A stretch of DNA of 64,000 nt from an uncultured Anaerolineae bacterium (GTDB lineage: Bacteria; Chloroflexota; Anaerolineae; J036; Brachytrichaceae), in assembly GCA_937959265.1 (NCBI GenBank), contig CALGMA010000005.1:1-64000 (forward strand), given 5' to 3'. Shown here in pieces: positions 25,370-29,343 of this stretch; the stretch's first letter is position 1; each line of letters starts with the position of its first letter. The notes beneath the pieces were generated by a model. That model worked only from the letters and a program-made list of their open reading frames with translations, made no database searches and had not been told where the DNA came from. The translations under genes and the position numbers were made by a program.

Positions 25370-26599
25370 TCACAGCTCAAAGCTCAACTGCATCCCCGCC
25401 CGTTGGCCATCCAGCAGCAGGTAGGGCAGGGCACGCGCTGTGATCACGCCTAGCCGGGTCAGTTGGATGGGCTCGCGCAGCCGGCGCTCGCGCCGCGCTT
25501 GAATGATTGCGTCTGCACCCTGTGGGCCGATGCCCGGCACCTTTAGCAGTGCTTCACGCTCGGCAAGGTTGACCTCCACAGGCGCGTCTATCAGGTGCTG
25601 CCGCGCCCAGGCCAGCTTAGGGTCAACGTCCAGCGGCAGCCGGCCCTGCGCGTCGAACGGCAGCTCCTCGAACTCGAAGCCGTAGTCCCGCAAGAGAAAT
25701 GAGGCCTGATACAGCCGGTGCTCGCGCCACGGATTCTCCGGTGGCAGGTTTTCCAGCGGCGTGTCGTGCACCGGATGAAAGGCGGAGAAGTAAGTGCGTT
25801 GCAGGCCGAACATCCGGGTCAGATACGCTGTGGTTTGCAGGATCTCGACGTCGCTCTCGCCGGCTGCGCCGACGACGAACTGAGTTACCGACGACGGCCA
25901 CCGGCGGTCTTGCGGCGGAGGCATACTCCGGCGAATCTCTTCTATCCACTTCAGGGGTTGCAGCAGCTCCTCGAAGAAAGTCTTCTTGGGCGCCAGCGCG
26001 CTCAGCCGCGACTGGCTGGGCGCTTCCAAGTTGATCGAGACCCGATCCGACAGCGTCATGGCAGCCAGCACCTGGTCGCGTTCGCTGCCTGGCATGAGCT
26101 TGAGATGCAGGTAGCCGCGATAGCCTAGCTTGCGGCGCAGGATGGCGGCTGTATCAATCAGCCGGTCTTGCGTGCGGACGCCGCCGCCGATGATGCCGGA
26201 GCTGAGGAAGAGCCCTTCGACCGCACCACGCTGGTTCAGCTCGACGAACGTGCGTGCCATCTCTTCTGGCTTGAAGGTGGCGCGGCGAAAGTCGCGGCCG
26301 GCACGGAAGGGGCAGTAGTAGCAGTTGCGCTCGCAAGCTGAGGTGAGCAGCGTCTTCAGCAATCGGATGCGCCTACCGCCGGGCATGACAGCGTCATGGA
26401 TGCCCAACGAATTCTTCTTCGTTTCGCTCAGCGAAACCGACGCGCGCTGCGGGTCGTCACCGAAGATGCGGCGCAGCTCGGCAGGCGCGTGGCCGCATGG
26501 CGCAGGCGCATAGAGACTGCGGGTAGCTTCCTCCCCCGGCTCCAGCGCCATCTGCCGGCTGAGCCAGACGAGTTTGCCGAGGGCGTCAATCGAACGCAT
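25370..26599 (-). CDS. Radical SAM protein with helix-hairpin-helix, putative DNA modification/repair
   Basis: 409 residues. The radical SAM cluster motif is CERNCYYCPFRAG (about 88), followed by the SAM-barrel segments SSGIIGGGVRTQDR and HLKLMPGSERDQVL. A C-terminal helix-hairpin-helix (LLKVPGIGPQGADAIIQA, about 355) is a DNA-binding motif. This matches the known family annotated as putative DNA modification/repair radical SAM protein, often linked to a uracil-DNA-glycosylase-like gene; no such glycosylase is in this window. The chemical reaction is unknown to me. Its promoter holds a perfect LexA-type box, supporting a DNA damage role. HD and zinc-ribbon genes precede it on the same strand. 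Confidence 0.9.
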   Translation of the reverse strand: MRSIDALGKLVWLSRQMALEPGEEATRSLYAPAPCGHAPAELRRIFGDDPQRASVSLSETKKNSLGIHDAVMPGGRRIRLLKTLLTSACERNCYYCPFRAGRDFRRATFKPEEMARTFVELNQRGAVEGLFLSSGIIGGGVRTQDRLIDTAAILRRKLGYRGYLHLKLMPGSERDQVLAAMTLSDRVSINLEAPSQSRLSALAPKKTFFEELLQPLKWIEEIRRSMPPPQDRRWPSSVTQFVVGAAGESDVEILQTTAYLTRMFGLQRTYFSAFHPVHDTPLENLPPENPWREHRLYQASFLLRDYGFEFEELPFDAQGRLPLDVDPKLAWARQHLIDAPVEVNLAEREALLKVPGIGPQGADAIIQARRERRLREPIQLTRLGVITARALPYLLLDGQRAGMQLSFEL

Positions 26600-26608
26600 G
26601 TGCTACCG

Positions 26609-26636
26609 ATTGTAGAACATACGTTCTGAACGTCAA
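26609..26636 (-). promoter_or_regulatory. SOS-type promoter: -35, LexA-like box and -10
   Basis: On the reverse strand TTGACG (26636-26631), a 16-base spacer and TACAAT (26614-26609) lie upstream of the ATG at 26599. Inside the spacer, at 26626-26615, is GAACGTATGTTC, a perfect match to the GAAC-N4-GTTC LexA box of Gram-positive type bacteria. A repressor there would block RNA polymerase. The leader would be only about two bases. LexA control is inferred, not shown. Confidence 0.7.
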
Positions 26637-26639
26637 CCT

Positions 26640-27554
26640 TCACACCGGTTTCAGCCGACCGTTCTCGAGCATTGCGTTGCTCAGGATGCGCTTCTCGAAG
26701 TGCTGCTCCGGGTGGATCGAGGTCACGTGCACCATCACGTAGTGACGCAGCGGTGTGGCGTTGATCTTCTTCACCAGCGTCTCCTCGACCTGGAAGATGC
26801 CGGCCGAGTTGCTCATCCGCACCTCGATCTCCACCGGCATCTTACTGCCGTTGGACGGCCGGATGTTTACTTCTTCGATGGCCAGGGCGGACACGGCGTG
26901 GATGTCCAACTTGCCCAGGTCAAACGGCATACGCGCCCGACCCTTGGTCATGTCGCAGCCGTCGGCCACAGCGACTACGCCACCTTCCATGAACAGCGGT
27001 GGTGGGTTCATATCGTGGCATTGGATGGCCGACAGGATAAAGTCGCTAATCAGTGCCTGCTGTTCGGCATCGTCGTATAACTCGGCTAGCATGTTGGCTA
27101 GGATCGGCTGGGCAAGGATCACGCTCATCAATTCGTGGCCGAGGCGATGGGTGGCGTTGCCGATGTCGTGCAGCATCACGCCGGCAAGCGCAACCAGGCA
27201 GGCGTCATCCACGTCGCCAGCGCCGGACTTCACCACGTCCATTGGCACGTCGGCCTCGATGAGGAGTTTCATGATCTGCATGGCATACGATGCCGTGACG
27301 CGGGCGTGGATCGGACCATGATCGTTGTAATTCAGCTTGCCGACGGTGGTGTAGTTCGACAGATTCCAGTGGGCATCCACGCGCGGGTCGGCTATAAGCA
27401 TCTCATACATTTGCGCCGTGCGTGGGTAGGGTGTGGAGAGTTCGCGGATGGCGACGTCGGCGCGCATGGCCAGCTCGCCGTAGTCATCCGGCAGCGGCGT
27501 GTTCAACTTGGCGCCATCACGCGAGGGGGGATGAGGCAGGATGATACGGGACAT
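26640..27554 (-). CDS. HD-domain phosphohydrolase
   Basis: 304 residues from the ATG at 27554 (MSRIILPHPPSRDG). The track extends 73 codons upstream, but that part crosses the end of the zinc-ribbon gene. HD motif residues are visible as DHGPIHARVTASYAM (first His) and VMLHDIGNATHRLGHE (HD pair), then SAIQCHDM and VAVADGCDMTKGR (final Asp). Such proteins cleave phosphoesters such as nucleotides or cyclic dinucleotides; the substrate is unknown. It is preceded by the CxxC protein with a 62-base gap and followed by the LexA-controlled radical SAM gene. Confidence 0.82.
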   Translation of the reverse strand: MSRIILPHPPSRDGAKLNTPLPDDYGELAMRADVAIRELSTPYPRTAQMYEMLIADPRVDAHWNLSNYTTVGKLNYNDHGPIHARVTASYAMQIMKLLIEADVPMDVVKSGAGDVDDACLVALAGVMLHDIGNATHRLGHELMSVILAQPILANMLAELYDDAEQQALISDFILSAIQCHDMNPPPLFMEGGVVAVADGCDMTKGRARMPFDLGKLDIHAVSALAIEEVNIRPSNGSKMPVEIEVRMSNSAGIFQVEETLVKKINATPLRHYVMVHVTSIHPEQHFEKRILSNAMLENGRLKPV

Positions 27555-27616
27555 CGTTGGAGGCGGCGTGTTGGGTAGCGCATGATCTTTGTCGAATCTT
27601 GCGTCTTGCGCTTTGC

Positions 27617-28083: not shown

Positions 28084-29343
28084 ATGGCCCTTCGCCTTTA
28101 CCGCACCGATGCGTATCTCGTTTCGTTCACGGCGCGGGTCGTTGCGCACGTGACACGCAAAGGCGCGCCGGCGCTCGTCCTCGATCGGACGGCGTTCTAT
28201 CCCGAAGCCGGCGGCCAGCCCCATGACGTGGGAGTGATTGCCCACGTGCGTGTCACAAACGTGATCGAGGATGCCGACGGGGAGATCTTGCACATCCTCG
28301 AGGGCAACACCGTAGATTCCCTACGACCCGGCGATGAAGTTCAGTGTTGCGTGGACTGGGGGCGCCGTTTCGACCACATGCAACAGCACAGCGGACAGCA
28401 CGTGTTGTCCCAGGCGTTCATCCGCGTTGCCGGCCTGGATACGGTCGCCATTCACATTGGCCATAGCGACTGCACGATTGACCTGCCGGCATCGGCGCTT
28501 CCGTCCGATGCGCTCGAACGTGCTGAACGAGAGGCCAACGCCATCGTCATGGAAGACCGACCGATCCTGGCCTATGAGGTGGGTGACGCTGACCTGCCGG
28601 CGATCCCGCTGCGCCGTCCCCCCAAGGTCAGCGGCGCGATTCGCATCGTCGAGGTGAAGGACTACGATTGGTCGGCATGCGGTGGCACACATGTGCGCAG
28701 CACAGCACAGATTGGCTTGATCAAAATCATCAAAGCCGAGAAGCGCGGGGCGGAGACGCGGATTACCTTTCGCTGCGGCAGCCGGGCGCTCGACGATTAC
28801 GCGCGCCTCAGCGCCGCGACCGGCCGCCTGATGGAGGCGCTGAGCGCCAGCCGCTACGAAGTGGAGCAGGCGGTGCAAAAGCTGATCGCCGAATCCCGCG
28901 CGGATCGCAAAGCCCTGCAAGAAGCCCAGGCGCGGCTGATCGCTTACGAGGCCGCCGAGCTGCTCGCCGGCGCTGCGGACGATGGTGAGCTGCGCTGGGT
29001 AGCACAGGCGTTCGCCGGGCGCGATCCATCCGAGCTACGCGCGCTGGCTAAGCAGCTCATGGGCGCGTCGCGCGTTGTAGCATTGCTCGGTGCGTCGGGC
29101 GACAAAGCGCAACTGGTCTTCGCGCGCACACAGGATACAACCGGCGACATGGCTGCGGCGCTGCGTCGCGCTTTGGCCGCGCTTTCGCCGAATGATGCGG
29201 CGAAGGGCGGGGGTGCGCCGACGTTCGCGCAAGGCGGCGGCGTGCCTGCCGATCAGTCGCAGGTGCAGGCAGCCATCGCTGCGGCGCGCGCGTGGCTACG
29301 TGATCAGCCGCGCGCCACTTCGGTTAACGCCGATAAGTCCTGA
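28084..29343 (+). CDS. Alanyl-tRNA editing protein, AlaX-L type
   Basis: 419 residues. N-terminal segment (about 1-90) resembles the AlaRS beta-barrel (YPEAGGQPHDVG). The editing domain has zinc ligands HMQQHSGQHVLSQAF and CGGTHVRSTAQIG (about 100-205). A coiled coil and C-terminal DHHA1 domain (about 270-410) with a GGGAPTFAQGGG segment follow. This is the long AlaX form. It removes serine or glycine wrongly attached to tRNA-Ala. It overlaps the convergent dehydrogenase gene by 40 bases at its 3' end. Confidence 0.9.
   Translation: MALRLYRTDAYLVSFTARVVAHVTRKGAPALVLDRTAFYPEAGGQPHDVGVIAHVRVTNVIEDADGEILHILEGNTVDSLRPGDEVQCCVDWGRRFDHMQQHSGQHVLSQAFIRVAGLDTVAIHIGHSDCTIDLPASALPSDALERAEREANAIVMEDRPILAYEVGDADLPAIPLRRPPKVSGAIRIVEVKDYDWSACGGTHVRSTAQIGLIKIIKAEKRGAETRITFRCGSRALDDYARLSAATGRLMEALSASRYEVEQAVQKLIAESRADRKALQEAQARLIAYEAAELLAGAADDGELRWVAQAFAGRDPSELRALAKQLMGASRVVALLGASGDKAQLVFARTQDTTGDMAAALRRALAALSPNDAAKGGGAPTFAQGGGVPADQSQVQAAIAAARAWLRDQPRATSVNADKS

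Follow-up and report, generated by a model that had tools for sequence, protein, structure and literature searches.

A gene for a radical SAM (rSAM) protein in the window (the whole 64,000-nt stretch of DNA analyzed, from an uncultured Anaerolineae bacterium) is very probably controlled by LexA, as indicated by a GAAC-N4-GTTC operator lying between its -35 and -10 elements and kept upstream of related rSAM genes. Since this switch has been kept before the rSAM gene across the class, the gene almost certainly belongs to the DNA-damage response. The account as a whole, an SOS promoter driving an rSAM enzyme whose substrate we leave open, is in our judgment likely. The coordinates of the features are given in Table 1.

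Table 1. Promoter, operator and flanking features of the rSAM gene in the window
Feature	Position	Strand	Basis or remark
-35 element TTGACG	26631-26636	-	read directly from the sequence
Spacer TTCAGAACGTATGTTC, 16 nt	26615-26630	-	between TTGACG and TACAAT
LexA-type operator GAAC-N4-GTTC (GAACGTATGTTC on the minus strand)	26615-26626	palindrome	exact match
-10 element TACAAT	26609-26614	-	read directly; abuts the operator
rSAM ORF, 409 aa	25370-26599	-	ORF; ATG at 26599
End of the preceding gene	26640-26642 (gene 26640-27557)	-	ORF list and sequence

The first-pass annotation had placed TTGACG, a 16-base spacer and TACAAT before the rSAM gene, and all three were read directly from the sequence at their positions. 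It had also described the palindrome as filling the spacer; a perfect GAAC-N4-GTTC palindrome was indeed present there, occupying the 3'-most 12 of the 16 bases rather than the whole spacer. The promoter sits in a 40-nt gap behind the preceding minus-strand gene, whose product, a probable phosphohydrolase, had no match in the Pfam and NCBIfam scan. The -35 element of a Roseilinea relative (L017) was also TTGACG and that of another relative (L018) was TTGACA; a -35-like hexamer was found in 28 of the 42 aligned rSAM loci.

GAAC-N4-GTTC is the established LexA site in Gram-positive type bacteria. LexA was encoded in the genome (E 2.5e-48; gene at C6:34380-35015) with two such boxes just 5' of its gene, and recA had one box, directly downstream of TATAAT. 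Across the class, lexA was detected in 189 of 199 genomes. Because an exact box was present upstream of 29 of the 30 Anaerolineae lexA genes examined (permuted palindromes: 0–3), GAAC-N4-GTTC is, as read from these upstream regions, the predicted LexA operator type of Anaerolineae. The catalytic residues of LexA were intact (Ser in GDSM, Lys in TLKR). At the expected self-cleavage site, the LexA of this genome (L016) and of four relatives from the same genus or family (L273–L276) had Ala-Ser, and most LexA proteins of the class had Ala-Gly; the Ala-Ser pair calls for caution regarding the presumed inducibility of LexA in this genome.

The rSAM protein was matched in 140 of the 199 class genomes; its distribution is patchy within the genus, the gene being absent from three genomes that possess lexA (G041, G119, G138). 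The relatives analyzed were 69 proteins drawn from GTDB genomes. Among 85 loci with upstream sequence, the box was exact in 38 and had at most one mismatch in 69, while eleven permuted palindromes of the same composition gave 0–1 exact matches and 3–10 with at most one mismatch in the same loci. In 19 further, previously unseen loci, 12 boxes were exact and all 19 had at most one mismatch (controls: 0–1 and 1–12, respectively). In 80 of the 102 distinct regions, a box with at most one mismatch was followed within 0–2 nt by a TATAAT-like hexamer, against 0–4 for the controls; common descent links the loci, so the counts do not represent independent events, and the permuted controls share the same relatedness. 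The commonest upstream neighbor family was common to at most 4 of the 69 loci, and L018 keeps the promoter element though its preceding sequence departs from those of the window and L017. Beyond Anaerolineae, boxes were present in further Chloroflexota (L216, L217, L222, L234) and also in Lachnospira (L247). In some rSAM orthologues the distal half-site is gone, and these genes may escape regulation. The first-pass annotation had predicted SOS-type control by LexA and had pointed to lexA, recA and the orthologous rSAM genes as the places where the box should recur; it recurs at all three, in agreement with that prediction.

The palindrome taken alone would carry little weight. The window holds one GAAC-N4-GTTC palindrome, which is not significant by itself because 0.66 are expected by chance; across the whole genome the pattern occurs 57 times and its reversed control 29 times, and most exact boxes among the sites listed (50 of the 57) fall within coding sequence. 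Both the expectation and the coding positions would suit a chance match in front of a constitutively expressed rSAM gene. The significance of the site comes instead from its conservation relative to permuted palindromes, in the 85 loci and in the 102 upstream regions alike, and chance occurrence was rejected on these controls; the site moreover lies between the -35 and -10 elements, and lexA and recA have the same box, which makes a constitutive gene with a fortuitous palindrome extremely improbable. Hardly more probable is the binding of another repressor whose operator resembles GAAC-N4-GTTC. At least one exact genomic site (GAACAAATGTTC) precedes a gene for a LacI-family regulator, and the rSAM box is present in three genomes with no detected lexA (G196, G139, G128), as such a repressor would allow. 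However, 29 of 30 class lexA genes have the site as their own operator, as does recA here, and the genomes with no lexA match are mostly incomplete drafts, including G139 and G128, with G196 (99% complete) as the exception. LexA control thus remains the reading we prefer.

The distance from the end of the -10 element to the start codon was 6–7 nt in 33 of the 42 aligned rSAM loci, which is the distance expected for transcription starting at the ATG itself. This layout was found for 42 of 59 rSAM genes, whereas among the other long ORFs of these loci it occurred in 15 of 211. Because the -10 element usually lies 6–7 nt before the ATG, the rSAM promoter is probably leaderless or nearly so. The gap in the window is 9 nt, which is outside the usual spacing and counts against a leaderless start there; a leader of approximately 2 nt would be expected. 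Leaderless promoters are rare in Chloroflexota: of 12 Chloroflexi genomes, 4 were reported to have leaderless genes, at a level of approximately 4.7% (PMC3160421).

The first-pass annotation assigned the product to a putative DNA modification/repair rSAM family, with a helix-hairpin-helix (HhH). This assignment stands as a relationship to the family, with Radical_SAM and HHH_3 matches, and falls short at the cut-offs of TIGR03916 and HHH_3. The match to TIGR03916 (rSAM_link_UDG; E 2.7e-84) scored 283.7 bits, below the curated cut-off of 343.5; Chloroflexota members mostly fall under this cut-off, three being above it. The Radical_SAM domain was matched in the 409-aa protein, and the HHH_3 match at residues 340–372 was sub-threshold (22.3 bits, cut-off 27). 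By sequence profile, the HhH was nearest to ComEA (1e-7), and DNA polymerase X was also matched. The CxxxCxxC motif (C89/C93/C96) was invariant in 40 homologues, with no other invariant cysteine; the lone triplet argues for a single [4Fe-4S] cluster and presumably no auxiliary one. The AlphaFold model (pLDDT 86.7) consisted of an rSAM barrel and an HhH, and the nearest folds among the best 50 matches were HydE, biotin synthase (BioB) and PFL activase (PFL-AE). Membership in the spore photoproduct lyase (SPL) family was rejected, as no SPL match was found in the NCBIfam scan or among the best 50 fold matches. Anti-phage defence was likewise rejected, there being no PADLOC match. We infer the putative repair function from the family, the HhH and the regulation.

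A UDG-like partner carrying the same box, to which the first-pass annotation had also pointed, did not materialize. TIGR03915, the UDG-like partner family, was searched in this genome and throughout the class and was found neither here nor in any of the 199 class genomes. Neither a UdgX nor a TIGR03915 neighbor was found beside any Chloroflexota rSAM locus examined. The UDG genes of this genome, in which PF03167 was searched, did not reach the UdgX cut-off (TIGR03914) and were not near any exact box among the sites listed (50 of 57). A UDG partner for the rSAM protein of the window was rejected on these grounds. Chloroflexota have kept the LexA operator without having the UDG-like partner, which suggests that the rSAM protein itself may be the damage-induced activity.

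Partnered relatives were found elsewhere, among sampled members of Alphaproteobacteria, Bacteroides, Clostridia and Acinetobacter. The gene next after rSAM encoded UdgX on Paracoccus and Azospirillum plasmids and TIGR03915 in Bacteroides and Lachnospira; the Acinetobacter neighbor, annotated as a 'DNA metabolism protein', matched TIGR03915 by tblastn, a stretch beside an unannotated Acetoanaerobium gene matched TIGR03915 (tblastn), and Ensifer matched UdgX. In the tree, seven partnered proteins, all sampled from plasmid records, were split from 59 solo proteins, whose clade is that of the window protein, by a long branch (0.95) that had full support, the apparent depth of this split being provisional. 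In 11 of the 69 rSAM loci (L019, L020, L021, L028, L032, L035, L040, L049, L077, L082, L085), a DUF6504 gene followed downstream on the rSAM strand, directly adjoining rSAM in some and approximately 1–2 kb away in others; DUF6504 was not found in this genome. It was rejected as a standing partner and is at most an occasional associate of rSAM. The literature searched contained no paper on DUF6504 and none treating UdgX together with radical SAM.

Fernandez de Henestrosa et al. in 2002 reportedly described a Gram-positive-type box for Dehalococcoides LexA. The likeness is the GAAC-N4-GTTC operator type in Chloroflexota; the difference is that the operator type of Anaerolineae is here read from a comparison of many genomes. 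We know of no rSAM target gene reported for Dehalococcoides LexA. The rSAM family of the window protein is one we take, partly from the matching UDG–rSAM neighborhood, to be COG4277. SOS control of the COG1573–COG4277 operon (UDG and HhH radical SAM) has been described in Bacteroidetes, and the same is cited for Verrucomicrobia and Alphaproteobacteria (PMC8565304). That operon resembles the window locus in the LexA-type control of apparently the same rSAM family; its rSAM protein is paired with a UDG-type protein under another LexA motif, whereas the rSAM gene of the window stands alone, with no adjacent UDG-type partner, under GAAC-N4-GTTC. LexA control has also been inferred for CAC3343–CAC3344 of Clostridium acetobutylicum, CAC3343 being annotated as the rSAM family of the window protein (PMC3828012); this operon comprises two genes and adds a second protein, in contrast to the solo gene of the window. 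In Lachnospira (L247), TIGR03915 is the product of the second gene, and upstream there is an exact box.

SOS control of the rSAM family is thus already known as a kind of regulation, given the LexA/SOS control reported in PMC8565304 and PMC3828012. As far as the literature searched shows, the new elements are the Chloroflexota members, the lack of a UDG-like partner with LexA control kept, and the probably leaderless operator-promoter. SplB, the spore photoproduct lyase (COG1533), is a radical SAM DNA-repair enzyme that is SOS-regulated in several species (PMC8565304); it offers a possible analogy in direct lesion reversal, although it belongs to a separate family and the HhH is carried by the window protein. 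Because the family has been found under LexA and next to uracil-DNA proteins, the role of rSAM could have been secondary to UDG. A partnerless single-gene member is a good candidate for substrate discovery, as a search of the PDB by sequence found no solved structure of the family.

In the mechanism we propose, LexA would occupy GAAC-N4-GTTC between the -35 and -10 elements and block RNA polymerase. Upon DNA damage, RecA filaments would lead to the self-cleavage of LexA and thus to transcription of rSAM, the mRNA having no leader or almost none. The product would be a single-cluster radical SAM enzyme (C89/C93/C96) with a C-terminal HhH that binds DNA, and the 5'-deoxyadenosyl radical would most likely act on the DNA itself, at a damaged or mis-incorporated residue. 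The operator, the promoter layout, its conservation, the lexA and recA operators and the cysteine triplet are the parts drawn from the sequence; the rSAM barrel with HhH is drawn from the model. Direct action of the enzyme on DNA is the option we lean toward. More tentatively, the solo clade may consist of SOS-induced radical SAM enzymes that repair DNA on their own, reversing or remodelling a lesion directly with no UDG-type partner, and that are expressed from a dedicated leaderless LexA promoter; we regard this full form as possible rather than probable.

An SOS-regulated enzyme could also modify a non-DNA target such as tRNA or a cofactor, with the HhH serving as a non-DNA domain. The best 50 fold matches, led by HydE, biotin synthase, lipoyl synthase and further rSAM enzymes that act on diverse substrates, are compatible with this, as are weak sequence matches to ThiH and CofG. 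Yet the HhH matches ComEA and DNA polymerase X, relatives are operonic with the DNA-repair proteins UdgX and TIGR03915, and the predicted LexA control points the same way, so that a non-DNA target seems unlikely and action on DNA is preferred.

Elsewhere in the window, a stand-alone alanyl-tRNA editing-type (AlaX-like) protein of 419 aa with similarity to the AlaS C-terminus was encoded (28084-29343). Other promoter-proximal boxes of this genome were taken from 50 of the 57 exact sites. Two LexA-type boxes (L003:1501-1542 = G000:C1:69475-69516) lie between the genes of an FtsK/SpoIIIE-type translocase and an M19 dipeptidase, upstream of the former, which is a candidate SOS-controlled DNA translocase. 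Another box lies in the spacer of a TTGACA-17 nt-TACACT promoter (L121:1366-1377, G000:C6:161965), before a gene whose product shows weak similarity to the DinB_2 superfamily, with a score below the cut-off. The gene of a 137-aa helical protein (L134:1329-1767 = G000:C9:97328-97766) is preceded by GAACCCTTGTTC-TAAAAT with the ATG approximately 8 nt on, the same box, -10 and ATG layout as in rSAM; homologues of this protein were found near the rSAM gene in four loci (L025, L034, L038, L043), and the homologue in L025 also has an exact box.
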